The notes beneath the pieces are model-generated. The model did not search any database. It saw only the letters and a program-made list of their open reading frames with translations, and had not been told where the DNA came from. This document shows, piece after piece, positions 25,915-32,973 of a DNA stretch of 64,000 nt (positions are counted from its first letter, which is position 1; every line of letters starts with the position of its first letter). A program made the position numbers and the translations under genes. Source of the DNA: Sphingobacterium micropteri (GTDB taxonomy: Bacteria; Bacteroidota; Bacteroidia; Sphingobacteriales; Sphingobacteriaceae); the NCBI RefSeq assembly GCF_014692515.1, contig NZ_JACOIK010000011.1, forward strand, positions 1-64,000, read 5' to 3'.

Positions 25915-26127
25915 ATGATTATGAAAGTACTATTGGACATAAAAGATAGCAAAGCATTGCACTTATTAGAAGTGCTTAAAGAGTTGCCTTATGTGAAAAC
26001 CAAGCAGCTTACTGATTCTAAGGCGCAGCTTATGAGTGAGATTCGGGAAGCTGTCGAGGAGATGAAACTTATTCGGGCGGGTAAAAAACAAGCCCGTGAT
26101 GCGGAAGATTTTCTGAATGGGCTATAG
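25915..26127 (+). CDS. Putative antitoxin of a RelBE-like pair
   Basis: A 70-residue acidic/basic protein immediately upstream of a RelE-like toxin and overlapping it by 11 bases, the usual arrangement of type II antitoxin genes. It begins MIMKVLLDIKDSKALHLLEVLKELPYVKTKQL, a short beta strand and helix like those of antitoxins found in Bacteroidota, and ends in a helix (LMSEIREAVEEMKLIRAGKKQARDAEDFLNGL) likely to wrap the toxin. A second ATG two codons in (25921) is equally usable. It should bind the toxin and the palindromes upstream. Confidence 0.75.
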   Translation: MIMKVLLDIKDSKALHLLEVLKELPYVKTKQLTDSKAQLMSEIREAVEEMKLIRAGKKQARDAEDFLNGL

Positions 26128-26449
26128 CGTAAAATCTATTGAGGTTTTTGAACGACAAGCTAAAAAGCTGATCAAAAAATATCCGTCTCTAAAATCAGAA
26201 TTTTTGGCGCTCATACAGGAACTCAAAGGAAATCCAGTTCAAGGTACAGCCTTAGGCAAAAGTTGCTACAAAATTCGATTATCTATCAAGTCAAAGGGAA
26301 AAGGTAAATCCGGAGGAGCTAGGATAATTACCAACTTTGTAGTGGCTAACGATACGGTTTATTTACTTTCTGTCTATGACAAGTCTGATAAGGAAAATAT
26401 CTCTGATAAAGAGTTGGATGAGCTCTTGTTATCTGTGCCGGAATGGTAG
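26117..26449 (+). CDS. RelE/ParE-superfamily toxin
   Basis: A 110-residue basic protein with the fold pattern of RelE-like toxins: VKSIEVFERQAKKLIKKYPSLKSEFLALIQEL (paired helices), GNPVQGTALGKSCYKIRLSIKS (strand with conserved Lys-Ile-Arg), then GGARIITNFVVANDTVYLLSVYDKSDK, the last two strands. The Gly-Lys-Gly-Lys loop and the basic faces fit an mRNA-interferase that cuts at the ribosome, but catalytic residues vary in this family and activity is not certain. The start overlaps the antitoxin stop (ATGGGCTATAG). Its 3' end overlaps by 21 bases the oppositely oriented orphan antitoxin-like gene. Confidence 0.78.
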   Translation: MGYSVKSIEVFERQAKKLIKKYPSLKSEFLALIQELKGNPVQGTALGKSCYKIRLSIKSKGKGKSGGARIITNFVVANDTVYLLSVYDKSDKENISDKELDELLLSVPEW

Positions 26450-29223: not shown

Positions 29224-31827
29224 TTGGCATTTTGTAAATCATTTATCGTTCTCTTATTGATAGCAATCGTCATCAATAGCTTGGGCGCACCATTAGATTG
29301 TGACTGTGGTTATAAGTATCGAAACACAAGAGATTCAACTAAAAGGTATTCACTAGAAATCGTTGATAGTATAACAAACAAAGCTATTCCATCTGTTACA
29401 GCTTATGTCTATAATGAAAGTAAGCTTGTGCAGATGGAATCTAGTAATAATAGGGGAATAATAAATTTTTTATGGAATGATTCTTCCATTTCCCCTAAGG
29501 TAAACGTAAAGCATCTAGCCTACAAAGAGCAAACCATAGATAACCTTAATCAAGACGAAACTACAGCGGTAGTCTTCCTCTCTCCCCGAAGCATCGTTAT
29601 CGATACTGTAGAACTTTCATCTCAGCCTTCCGATACGATAACGTTTAAATTAGATTCGGTCGCGACGCAACGAGATAAAATGAATAAAGCGATCCTTACG
29701 CTCGAAGGCTTCCATATACAAGACGACATACTCTATTATAAACTAAAGCCTATAGACAAAGTTTTAGTAAATGGGGAAGTGTTTTTTTATTCTGATGCTG
29801 ACGAATTATTAAAGCTGCTACCTGCGTTTATAATAGATAAAGTAAAAATATACGATACAGTAGATTCTTTAGAAATACAGGATAACCAAATTCCATATAA
29901 GGAGATGAATCTCATAACCTATGAGGATAAGAAAAACGGTTTTTTTGGTGACATCAATATGTCTGGAGGAAAGCATAAGACGAGAGACATAGGGTATAGC
30001 TTATTTTTAACACTTGCAAAAAACAAAATTCATTCTAGAGCATCTAGAAATAACATAGCGAGATACTGGGATAGTGATATTCTGACGTTAAGAAATCTAC
30101 AACCCATCAACAATCAGTTATTTCAGGATATCATATTAAAACATAGTAATACATCAATACAAAATTTAACCATATCAAACGATTTAACGTATAGTACGAA
30201 TGCTGTAATTGATAGAGATGAGAAAGTAGATAGTATCATACAACATAGCGTTATGTCTACTATTTATTCGGTGAATCAATCTACATCCCGAAATAATAAT
30301 TTTAATTATTTATCTTCTCTTCAATATAGGACAAAATCTATCCAAGCAAACTTAACTCCCTCCTTGTCATTTTTTAATAGTACAAACAATTTTACAAAAG
30401 AATCAACTGTAAATAAAAATAGTAATTTAAATAGTCGTACAATAAACCAAAATTCTTTCCAGAATATCAATATACCCTATACACAGTTAATAACGCTGAA
30501 AGATAACCAAAGATTAAGAGTAAGTTTTAATTATTCCTATAATAAAAATAGGATGCAAGATACGGTTACTAGAGACGACGAAACTTCAACCTATTCGATA
30601 AAAACAAATATTGCAAAAGAGTTCTCTCCGGGTATTGAATACGCTTACCAAATATCCAAACCTATTCATATTAGCGTCGGTAGTAAGTTTGCTAAACGAT
30701 CTAATAGTAATAGTAATAAAACCAGAGTTGTTCCAAGAGACACTTTGACTACTTCATCAGAAAATTATACGAGTAAATTATTCTCCAATCAGGCAAACAT
30801 TAGTTATAAAGCCGGTTCATTTCAAACGCTGGGCACAGTATCTTTGAATAAGATAGAAGAAAATTATATTTATTCTGATGCTTCGAATAAAAGGACGCGT
30901 AATAATTTTCTATTCCATTTTAACACGAAATATCTATATAAAAATTGGGACTTCAGTGGTTCTTTTAATCAAACTAATATATTACCTAGCATTCAACAAA
31001 TAATTTCGGATCCACGAATTACCAATAATTCCAATGTTTATGTAGGTAATCCCCATTTAACAACAGGATATTCGAGAAAATATGAACTCTCGTTAGCCCA
31101 CTCTAACAATCAAAACGGAAATCACGTAAGTCTCCAAATGTCATCCGCCCAATCTATTAATGGTATCGAAGAAAGATTTCATTTATTAAGTGCAGATACT
31201 ACAATAAATGGGGTTATTATTCCGGGTGGAATGGTGTTGATTTCTCCGGTTAATGGGGTGCGAAAACACGGCTATAACACCAATCTTTCATATTATATCA
31301 ACAAAACTTTTGTGGAAAATATGAGAACAAATATAAATTTAAGTTTTTCTAATTCTTATTCTATATATCAAAATAATCCCAATGAAAAGAAAAATTCAGT
31401 CTCGATGGGAGTTAATGTTCAATATGATACACATATGCTAAAAATGAGATTGAATTATGATTATGGATTAAATTACCATCAGATAGAAAGCAATGATAAT
31501 TTAAGGATGCTACACCAAAGTGTAAACAATTATATTGCTTTTAATGGGTTAAGTTTGTTTAGATTGGAATCAAATGCTACGCTTTCTATGAATAGATTTT
31601 CAAATGATTTCACTTTTGATCAGATATATTGGAATCTTATCGCTTATCAGCATATACTCAAAAGCCAAAAATTAAAGGTGCAATTTGCCGTCAATAATAT
31701 CCTCAATACTCAACAGAATGTTCTTTTTGATATTAACAACAATATCGCCTCTCAAAGTAGTACAAATATTAACGGGAGATTTTGGATCGTTACATTATCT
31801 TATCAAGTAGCAAAATTTGGCTTCTAA
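29224..31827 (+). CDS. Large outer-membrane barrel protein (TonB-receptor-like), TTG start
   Basis: An 867-residue protein. The signal peptide (AFCKSFIVLLLIAIVINSLGAPLDC) begins right after an in-frame TAG at 29221-29223, so translation must start at TTG 29224 or very near; no ATG is available. After a carboxypeptidase-regulatory-like domain (~40-125), a plug-like segment appears (KVLVNGEVFFYSDADELLKL, AFIIDKVKIYDTVDSLEIQD, YEDKKNGFFGDINMSGG), the pattern of the OMP_b-brl_3 class rather than SusC. The remainder is a barrel with many Asn/Ser-rich strands ending VTLSYQVAKFGF. The gene is visibly AT-rich (the 60 bases from 30361 contain only 12 G or C), unlike its surroundings. Substrate is unknown; the preceding secreted protein may be a partner. 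Confidence 0.75.
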   Translation: MAFCKSFIVLLLIAIVINSLGAPLDCDCGYKYRNTRDSTKRYSLEIVDSITNKAIPSVTAYVYNESKLVQMESSNNRGIINFLWNDSSISPKVNVKHLAYKEQTIDNLNQDETTAVVFLSPRSIVIDTVELSSQPSDTITFKLDSVATQRDKMNKAILTLEGFHIQDDILYYKLKPIDKVLVNGEVFFYSDADELLKLLPAFIIDKVKIYDTVDSLEIQDNQIPYKEMNLITYEDKKNGFFGDINMSGGKHKTRDIGYSLFLTLAKNKIHSRASRNNIARYWDSDILTLRNLQPINNQLFQDIILKHSNTSIQNLTISNDLTYSTNAVIDRDEKVDSIIQHSVMSTIYSVNQSTSRNNNFNYLSSLQYRTKSIQANLTPSLSFFNSTNNFTKESTVNKNSNLNSRTINQNSFQNINIPYTQLITLKDNQRLRVSFNYSYNKNRMQDTVTRDDETSTYSIKTNIAKEFSPGIEYAYQISKPIHISVGSKFAKRSNSNSNKTRVVPRDTLTTSSENYTSKLFSNQANISYKAGSFQTLGTVSLNKIEENYIYSDASNKRTRNNFLFHFNTKYLYKNWDFSGSFNQTNILPSIQQIISDPRITNNSNVYVGNPHLTTGYSRKYELSLAHSNNQNGNHVSLQMSSAQSINGIEERFHLLSADTTINGVIIPGGMVLISPVNGVRKHGYNTNLSYYINKTFVENMRTNINLSFSNSYSIYQNNPNEKKNSVSMGVNVQYDTHMLKMRLNYDYGLNYHQIESNDNLRMLHQSVNNYIAFNGLSLFRLESNATLSMNRFSNDFTFDQIYWNLIAYQHILKSQKLKVQFAVNNILNTQQNVLFDINNNIASQSSTNINGRFWIVTLSYQVAKFGF

Positions 31828-31891
31828 CGCTTACAATAATTAAAGAACTTTATTTTAACGATTTTGTTTATATTCTTGGAATATTGTGCTG

Positions 31892-32169
31892 TTTTTGGAC
31901 GGTCCAGAAGTTTTGTTATACAATTACGTTTCTATTTCTGGAATAGGATTCCGTTTGTATGCCACAACAGGTATTTGTTAAACCAAAAGAATCATTTTGT
32001 TGGCAATAAGCATATTTTGTTTGACAATAAGGATTCGATTTCCGGCATATAAACCTGTTTGTAAACCATGACGTTTATTTGTTAAGCAAAAAGAATCTTT
32101 TTGTAGGCAAAAAAGAAGTTTTTTAGGGGAAAAAGTAAATTTGCCAAACTTTTAAAAACGCTGTTTCTG
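31892..32169. repeat. Degenerate ~21-nt tandem array with an internal 104-bp duplication
   Basis: TTTG or a close variant (TTTCTG, TTTCCG, TTTTAG) recurs about every 21 bases; the final G positions are 31897, 31915, 31940, 31957, 31977, 31999, 32019, 32044, 32061, 32081, 32103, 32125, 32143 and 32169. Most units also carry a dyad, TTTG then 3-5 bases then CAAA or CAAT, clearest in TTTTTGTAGGCAAAAA (32098-32113). Five units are duplicated at an offset of 104 bases: 31935 onward matches 32039 onward in about three quarters of the first 75 columns by hand count. The period is two helical turns, so the T-tracts are phased and bending is expected. Not coding, since 104 is not a multiple of three. 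Confidence 0.7.
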
Positions 32170-32206
32170 AGCTGTGAGGGAATAAAATTAGGCGTTTTTA
32201 GCAGGT

Positions 32207-32270
32207 AGGGGGTCAAATTGCGACAAAATTTTCCGAAAAAGTGAAAAATTTTGGCACGATTTGACCCCCT
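32207..32270. repeat. Long inverted repeat upstream of the fibronectin-III gene
   Basis: AGGGGGTCAAAT (32207-32218) and ATTTGACCCCCT (32259-32270) are perfect 12-bp arms. After a six-base stretch with three mismatches the symmetry resumes with AAAATTTT on both sides, giving arms of about 26 bp around a ~12-base centre. It lies 20 bases upstream of a -7 promoter box, so it may be an operator, or a stable structure in a readthrough transcript. Confidence 0.75.
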
Positions 32271-32289
32271 GTTTCGTACCGTGCCCTCC

Positions 32290-32297
32290 TATATTTG
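32290..32297 (+). promoter_or_regulatory. Probable -7 promoter box of the fibronectin-III gene
   Basis: TATATTTG is an exact TAnnTTTG box 52 bases before the ATG. No TTG is found at the preferred ~20-base spacing; TTTGACC at 32260 is 26 bases away and overlaps the palindrome arm. Confidence 0.5.
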
Positions 32298-32349
32298 CGT
32301 CTGTTGGTCAACATAGACATCATTTTTTTAATCTTTAAAAACATTCATC

Positions 32350-32973
32350 ATGGCAAAAACAACATTAAAAACCGGCGCGACGGGCAACAGCGAAGCAGCG
32401 TATGTAAAGTTTGTTGAAAATATCGTGGTTAAATTAACAGAAAACATAGCTTTATTCCCGGATGTAGAACCAGAACGGGATGTTTTGGAACAGCTACTCT
32501 CGGAATTCAAACGGACGCAGGCCGATGCCGCATACCGCGACAAGCGGATGGTCGTCATCAAAAATCAGGCTTATGCCACATTGAAAGCGGAGGTATACCG
32601 TATGTCACTTTATGTAGAACGTCAGGCAGCGGGGGATGAGGCCATGATCTTGGCCGCAGGTTTTATCCCCTCCAAAAGAGGTATGCGTGTGCTGGAGCCG
32701 GCCCCCAAACCGAAAATTTTTATCGTCGAGGTCAACGCACAAATTTCCGGTGTCGCGGATCTCAAGGTGAACGGCTGGAGACGGGTGCTTGCCTATCGAT
32801 TTGAATACCGGAAGAAGAACAGCGATAGCCATTGGAACCCGGTGTTGAGCTCGAAATCCAAAGTGACGATAATCGGGTTGGAGCCCGTACAGGAATATGA
32901 GTTTCGGGTAGCCTATATTGGTCGAAATCCGCAGATAACCTATAGTGATATCGTCAGCTCGTATGTATTTTGA
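32350..32973 (+). CDS. Fibronectin type III domain protein, cytoplasmic by appearance
   Basis: A 207-residue protein with no signal peptide. Residues 1-~115 form a helical region (YVKFVENIVVKLTENIALFPDVEP, ERDVLEQLLSEFKRTQADAAYRDKR, KAEVYRMSLYVERQAAGDEAMILAAGF) reminiscent of small Bacteroidota proteins of this size. Residues ~120-205 are one fibronectin-III-like domain (GWRRVLAYRFEYRKKNSDS, SSKSKVTIIGLEPVQEYEFRVAYIGRN). The leader region is unusual (periodic array, palindrome). Its GC content looks normal in contrast to the preceding gene. Function unknown; protein-protein interaction is the default expectation for the fibronectin-III part. Confidence 0.75.
   Translation: MAKTTLKTGATGNSEAAYVKFVENIVVKLTENIALFPDVEPERDVLEQLLSEFKRTQADAAYRDKRMVVIKNQAYATLKAEVYRMSLYVERQAAGDEAMILAAGFIPSKRGMRVLEPAPKPKIFIVEVNAQISGVADLKVNGWRRVLAYRFEYRKKNSDSHWNPVLSSKSKVTIIGLEPVQEYEFRVAYIGRNPQITYSDIVSSYVF

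Follow-up and report, generated by a model that had tools for sequence, protein, structure and literature searches.

In plasmid iterons and partition-site arrays, degenerate protein-binding sites of about 20-22 bp stand in tandem and in register, and operators usually keep their letters. Sites of AraC-family regulators are typically asymmetric; the spacing of araI1 and araI2 is 21 bp. Two published accounts assign two 15-bp direct repeats to XylS at Pm (PMC5481539) and 15-bp blocks at -72 to -58 and -50 to -36 to MtlR at PmtlE (PMC4514859).

The DNA analyzed here (the window) is a 64,000-nt stretch of Sphingobacterium micropteri contig NZ_JACOIK010000011.1, from a genome of 38 contigs and 4.85 Mb. 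A first-pass annotation, made from the letters alone, had picked out a short non-coding array with a period of about 21 nt upstream of a fibronectin-III (FN3) gene. This array is a member of a large family of non-coding arrays found upstream of FN3 genes in Sphingobacterium and its relatives. The features of the locus are as follows.

31878-32135, no strand assigned: 12 full degenerate units with a partial unit at each end (autocorrelation, circular 21-state HMM and unit listing)
31906-32009, plus strand: super-unit copy 1, 104 bp, five units (repeat search, super-unit register and model R1)
32010-32113, plus strand: super-unit copy 2, 104 bp, 72% identical to copy 1 in the register 31911-32014/32015-32118
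32207-32270, no strand assigned: large palindrome with 26-nt arms at 32207-32232 and 32245-32270, 88% complementary, around a 12-nt center
32290-32297, plus strand: TATATTTG, a sequence match to the Bacteroidetes -7 promoter consensus TAnnTTTG
32350-32973, plus strand: FN3 gene, 207 aa, with a predicted N-terminal helical part and C-terminal fibronectin-III fold

The arrays resemble AraC/XylS operators such as Pm and PmtlE in having repeats about two helical turns apart upstream of a promoter. An AraC-type gene is linked to 26 of 41 FN3a arrays and to none of eight FN3b arrays (both groups are defined below). Unlike Pm and PmtlE, for which two sites are reported, the FN3 arrays contain 10-28 fitted units; unlike AraC/XylS operators, their units are palindromic and locus-specific, and many have no adjoining AraC-type gene. 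Degenerate units of about 21 bp in register are shared with iterons and partition arrays, but, unlike iterons, several array types occur in one genome, they lie before FN3 genes, and the FN3 protein had no tblastn match in plasmid and phage collections; by eye, no replication or partition gene stood out among the genes listed. The window protein also matched no PADLOC and no PHROGs family, and a phage or plasmid origin is not supported by these searches. A CRISPR array is likewise a tandem non-coding repeat, but here the whole unit repeats and the units abut without spacers; the lack of unique spacers was one of the grounds on which the first-pass annotation had set CRISPR aside. By eye, no cas gene stood out among the genes listed.

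Autocorrelation of 31892-32169 gave a match of 0.592 at lag 104 compared with 0.281 for shuffled sequence (z 8.7), and further peaks at lags 42 (z 6.2), 62 (6.0), 21 (5.7), 83 (5.1) and 125 (4.9). None of these six z-scores was matched at any lag by 1000 dinucleotide shuffles, which bears out the proposed period of about 21 nt and the lag of 104, and the repeat search recovered the proposed 104-bp duplication. The log-likelihood ratio of a circular 21-state HMM was 107, with a maximum of 52 across five shuffles. Fourteen cores over about 280 bp had been counted by hand; the array is real, but the count is corrected to 12 full units between about 31878 and 32135, ends that shift with the model used. 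Ten units are 21 nt long and two are only 20 nt, and therefore the mean pitch is 20.8 bp. Tandem Repeats Finder detected the repeat only at 32088-32135. The short dyads ascribed to most units are weak in the window array (column-permutation p 0.047) but convincing across the family. The window array is among the very degenerate ones, and L047 is the near-perfect extreme.

The structure model of the 207-aa protein had a mean pLDDT of 88.2, and its best PDB matches were FN3 domains. The FN3 gene has a 100% identical counterpart in Sphingobacterium corticibacterium strain 30C10-4-7. Eleven family members were found in the window's own genome by single-protein search and at least 12 by family profile, a search that scores at most 12 candidates per genome. 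Counting the window's own genome in each case, the family is present in 16 of 40 genomes and, by profile search, in 37 of 250 genomes of the order; it is missing from many genomes within the same genus. Fifty loci from the host and its relatives were retrieved with wider DNA and, with the window, were sorted according to their neighbors and their resemblance to the window protein into 41 FN3a, eight FN3b (L040, L041 and L101-L106) and two distant loci (L107 and L108). At FN3a loci, an AraC-type gene lies upstream on the same strand in the 26 cases given above (phmmer, two AraC queries, E≤1e-3), including an 89-aa fragment in L036 and a gene broken in two in L084; the AraC-type protein of L032 matched HTH_18 at 7.9e-15. 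A coiled-coil gene lies downstream in 26/41 (phmmer E≤1e-3). Both genes are present at 25/41 FN3a loci and neither at 14/41 ("orphans"), one of which is the window locus. Neither gene was detected at any of the eight FN3b loci at the same phmmer threshold; a DUF5675-type gene, different from the coiled-coil partner of FN3a, lies downstream in five of the eight (phmmer; Pfam 2.8e-30 in L041). Structure searches gave no match at E≤0.001 for the coiled-coil protein and indicated no DNA-binding fold for either the FN3 or the coiled-coil protein.

An AT-rich barrel gene (29224-31827) precedes the window array. It had no tblastn match at E≤1 in L069, L070, L140 and L141, from the two nearest relatives, and similarity between the window and these relatives starts near 31869; the barrel gene therefore lies outside the cassette. 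Farther upstream, 25915-26449 contains two small genes that overlap and, judged by eye, resemble a toxin-antitoxin pair.

In the window's own genome, an array was found upstream of 11 family members, window included, which are all of those with enough upstream DNA; the C31 member sits at a contig end and was left out. The window and nine paralogs had best periods of 20.4-21.0 (z 4.2-17.2, reached by 0/200 shuffles), and the C6 member, found by profile, had a period of 21.0 (z 10.1). Across loci, a free period scan returned 20.8-21.0 nt at p≤0.02 in 48/50 testable cases, the exceptions being L032 (20.0) and L086 (31.6). Overlapping sets behaved similarly: 35/37 loci of an earlier set fell at 20.2-21.0 with p≤0.02 (L029, at 21.0 with p 0.11, and L066, at 27.0 with p 0.09, failed), and 26/30 passed in another (L128, L131, L135 and L137 failed), which amounts to 19 of 23 new loci because seven were already in the earlier set. 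Only 21 of 387 control windows passed the period test, and 16 of these came from the 1400-nt stretch that directly follows FN3 genes and in which the coiled-coil gene lies; 7/30 FN3 downstream flanks passed.

The circular 21-state HMM fitted all 50 arrays better than five of five shuffles. Higher-order repeats of 42 and 63 bp are present in L045 and L063. In 35/50 arrays the palindromic symmetry of the unit profile reached or exceeded the 95th percentile obtained from EM fits on shuffled sequence (Mann-Whitney p 1.5e-19), and phase was unbroken in 27/50; recurring 20-nt units are a property of the window's group. Ortholog arrays (20 pairs) were 47-89% identical, with 11-53% of positions differing. 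Their lengths differed by exactly 21 or 42 nt in 7/20 pairs, and differences of 136, 85, 68, 62 and 1-10 nt were also found. Pooled over 15 ortholog pairs, some of which share sequences, the seven most informative columns were 75.7% identical (1344/1775 cells) and the seven least informative 67.2% (1183/1761 cells), a modest effect that was significant alone in five pairs and showed no trend in four. Unit letters differ between locus groups while the period holds.

Between array and gene, a TAnnTTTG box was found within -160 to -15 of the start codon in 40/50 loci against 4.0 expected; the window's box is at -60. Because -120 was the limit of the modeled array region, the order of array first and box second is in part imposed by the method. 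An inverted repeat with a score of at least 10 within 230 nt of the start codon was present at 33/41 FN3a loci and in 9/205 shuffled windows. By eye, its outer GGGGT-AAAT and inner GCCAAAA boxes recur, and the sequence separating them varies in step on the two arms. The large palindrome is missing from four of the 26 AraC-bearing loci (L035, L082, L087 and L088) and was found in 10/14 orphans, with that of L089 being unrelated and AT-rich; FN3b loci do not have it, and L040 and L104 carry an unrelated one from -56 to about -6. It tends to accompany the AraC-bearing subfamily, and it may therefore be the site of the AraC-type protein. In the window, the left arm matches the version in the C22 cassette and the right arm resembles that of the G007 cassette, judged by eye and with imperfect complementarity between the arms.

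The 104-bp block represents a conserved super-unit of five units, which also occurs in an array without an FN3 gene: its unit order is common to the window, the C22 cassette, related G007 and G020 loci and the solitary C11:31k array. A sequence-only model (R1) scored 85.6 bits at 31907-32008, a sequence included in the model. The search of the window's own genome with the sequence-only model gave 25 matches at E≤1, strong at the window, C22:327k and C11:31k and weak at C22:229k (30 bits) and C33:193k (20 bits). When 21-bp arrays were ranked in a 400-kb genome sample, picked so as to contain two FN3 loci, the top four were, in this order, the FN3 array of C11, the solitary array C22:229k, C11:31k and the C22:327k cassette. 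Solitary arrays of the window's type were sought throughout the genome, and those of other types within the 400-kb sample.

Solitary arrays have varied surroundings. At L156:9050-9310 (G000:C22:229,050-229,310), a same-type array without an FN3 gene has, by eye, an FMN-dependent dehydrogenase gene on one side and a metE-like gene on the other; downstream are one palindrome arm and then a leader resembling a SAM riboswitch by eye. At L210:2288-2933 (minus strand; G000:C33 near 193 kb), a same-type array comes directly after an AraC-type gene, and one palindrome arm lies beyond it. The encoded protein, 106 aa, is a DNA-binding domain (HTH_18, 3.7e-16) without the N-terminal domain, and there is no FN3 gene. 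At L209:2543-3654 (minus strand; G020), an array with a 62-bp super-unit (22+20+20) directly follows a gene for a 245-aa protein that has no Pfam match and by eye resembles DUF6266-like proteins. L207:2474-2960 (G007:C56) has an array, a full palindrome and a promoter-like box, with no FN3 gene on the contig among the matches listed, and is possibly a cassette that lost its FN3 gene. A palindrome-arm-like sequence follows four solitary arrays (L156/L214, L208, L209 and L210; by eye) and is not clear by eye in L213. L213 and L208 occupy an equivalent place in two species with their letters largely rewritten. Solitary arrays of the same type may be what remains of lost cassettes.

Of the three readings first proposed for the array (a multi-site operator, bent DNA or a decaying repeat family), the multi-site operator explains the data best. 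We give an even chance to the proposal that the array regulates the FN3 gene from upstream, as a row of putative dimer sites controlling the FN3 promoter. In the window, about 12 degenerate dyad-symmetric sites two helical turns apart would place bound dimers on one face of the DNA and allow contacts between them. A dimeric DNA-binding protein particular to the lineage would fill the row cooperatively, and the bound row would act on the promoter about 150 bp downstream, where the large palindrome, perhaps the AraC-type regulator's site, also sits. Dimers in a row are suggested by the two-turn pitch, the promoter box, dyads without covariation, and the lack of any sign of coding, curvature or RNA structure. 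The near-constant period over the family, the arrays without a phase break, the ortholog length differences of exactly 21 or 42 nt and the better conservation of informative columns also speak for the operator reading. Covariation across the dyad within arrays had a mean z of 0.10 +/- 0.19 (n=50) with the choice of axis controlled, as expected of protein sites and not of hairpins; a hairpin RNA or cruciform is not supported, since an apparent covariation (mean z 1.19) was gone under that control.

The array had also been judged non-coding on the length of the 104-nt block, and this assessment holds. An open frame exists in 11 of 50 arrays, but their shortage of stops (observed/null 0.52) is nearly matched by five control triplet sets (0.55-0.68). 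Of 10 ortholog pairs, nine lacked a codon-position pattern, the exception being L079/L081. Coding heptads, for which 21 nt would be seven codons, are not supported by these results.

Several observations count against the operator reading. Identity of the AraC DNA-binding domain predicts array similarity no better than that of other cassette proteins, most orphan arrays outside the window's group are unlike that of the nearest cassette, same-type arrays exist without an FN3 gene, and many ortholog length differences are not multiples of the unit. The modest column effect and the loci without a significant 21-nt signal in the two earlier sets (two of 37 and four of 30) weigh in the same direction. 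The unrelated letters of different groups also represent turnover faster than is usual for operators. Either the reader and its sites co-evolve quickly, with the unit letters following the binder, or spacing and symmetry outweigh the letters.

Another account, with a modest chance of being right, is that the array is a tandem direct-repeat operator of the cassette's AraC-type regulator, with one AraC/XylS-type monomer per 21 bp and with orphan and solitary arrays as the regulator's other targets. The gene precedes the array on the same strand in the AraC-bearing FN3a loci, and in most of them the fitted array begins at the first base past the AraC stop codon, which is also the first base that the fit allowed. 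The direct repeats about two turns apart described for AraC-family sites in the accounts cited above (PMC5481539, PMC4514859) would fit this pitch. Yet 15/41 FN3a and 8/8 FN3b loci have no adjoining AraC-type gene, and those tested have arrays. The palindromic units are also at odds with the asymmetry typical of AraC-family sites, and the large palindrome by the promoter offers an alternative AraC site. Array similarity was measured by local alignment against shuffles, used in place of PWM-cosine, which understated it because arrays mix unit types. Among complete cassettes, this similarity drops to background level when protein identity is under about 50-60%. It is higher where the DNA-binding domains are more alike (rho 0.18, p 0.003), yet the partial correlation for this domain was -0.05 over 276 pairs, no more than general relatedness, and those for each of the cassette proteins ranged from -0.05 to 0.13. 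Orphan arrays of the window's group are related to those of complete cassettes, as a shared regulator would predict (window array against L071, z 33.1; against L032, z 9.1). Outside this group, 8/11 orphans share 64-70% FN3 identity with a complete cassette, but their arrays are unlike that of the nearest one (z≤1.6), so a shared factor is unlikely there.

A broader, doubtful extension is a system spanning the genus, with a private DNA "address" for every FN3 cassette: the letters of the dyad sites would be free, the 21-bp pitch and symmetry fixed, and a fast-evolving DNA-binding protein, the reader, would polymerize along the row. If this is true, same-type solitary arrays would be the reader's remote sites, and the whole would be a new address-and-reader system and not ordinary promoter control.

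It is unlikely that the array is a functionless tandem repeat held in step by slippage and unequal crossing over, with solitary arrays as relics of dead cassettes. Block duplication is evident from the 42-, 62-63- and 104-bp higher-order repeats and from near-identical arrays, unit letters turn over rapidly, and the single palindrome arms on four solitary arrays (by eye) and the truncated AraC-type gene beside one of them also speak for it. However, slippage alone should yield many periods, so the pitch shared by arrays with unrelated letters (48/50), together with their common place before a promoter box, counts against this explanation, for which dyad symmetry and column conservation are also unexpected. 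The earlier suggestion of a decaying repeat family survives at best in part: letters turn over and solitary arrays may be relics, but phase is kept.

A DNA-organizing or address element, in which the array type tags loci for clustering or marking by a protein without any promoter switch, is quite unlikely. It would suit the dispersal of same-type arrays (the window, C22:327k, C11:31k, C22:229k and, more weakly, C33:193k), the solitary array that keeps its place in two species (L213 and L208) and the array types that mostly differ among loci of one genome. Against this, the arrays found mostly precede one gene family and its promoter, and some solitary arrays look like relics. Very unlikely is a transcribed RNA array, whether of small RNAs, a sponge or a hairpin RNA. 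A place after the AraC-type gene would permit read-through and the units hold short dyads, but these do not covary, the pitch fits B-DNA and the promoter box is closer to the gene than the array is. Rfam gave 14 matches at E≤5 over 31500-32600, all far under gathering scores, and over the window array itself none with E below 2 or near a gathering score. Intrinsically bent DNA is scarcely credible: in a wedge model, some arrays were strongly curved (L032, z 3.6), but the window array was nearly straight (ratio 0.94, z -0.8) and the 50 arrays matched period-preserving column permutations (mean z 0.06 +/- 0.18).

Literature searches aimed at such arrays, which covered few subscription papers and no bioRxiv preprints, found no description. 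Rows of operator sites are a known kind of element; the family-wide fixed pitch with private letters is, to the extent checked, a new variant. Fixed-pitch, free-letter non-coding arrays, at least 11 of them in one genome, are unusual. They provide many natural variants of one architecture, on which helical-phase rules for cooperative binding and the joint evolution of a DNA reader and its sites could be tested directly. The arrays mark an uncharacterized FN3, AraC-type and coiled-coil gene family of Sphingobacterium and related genera.
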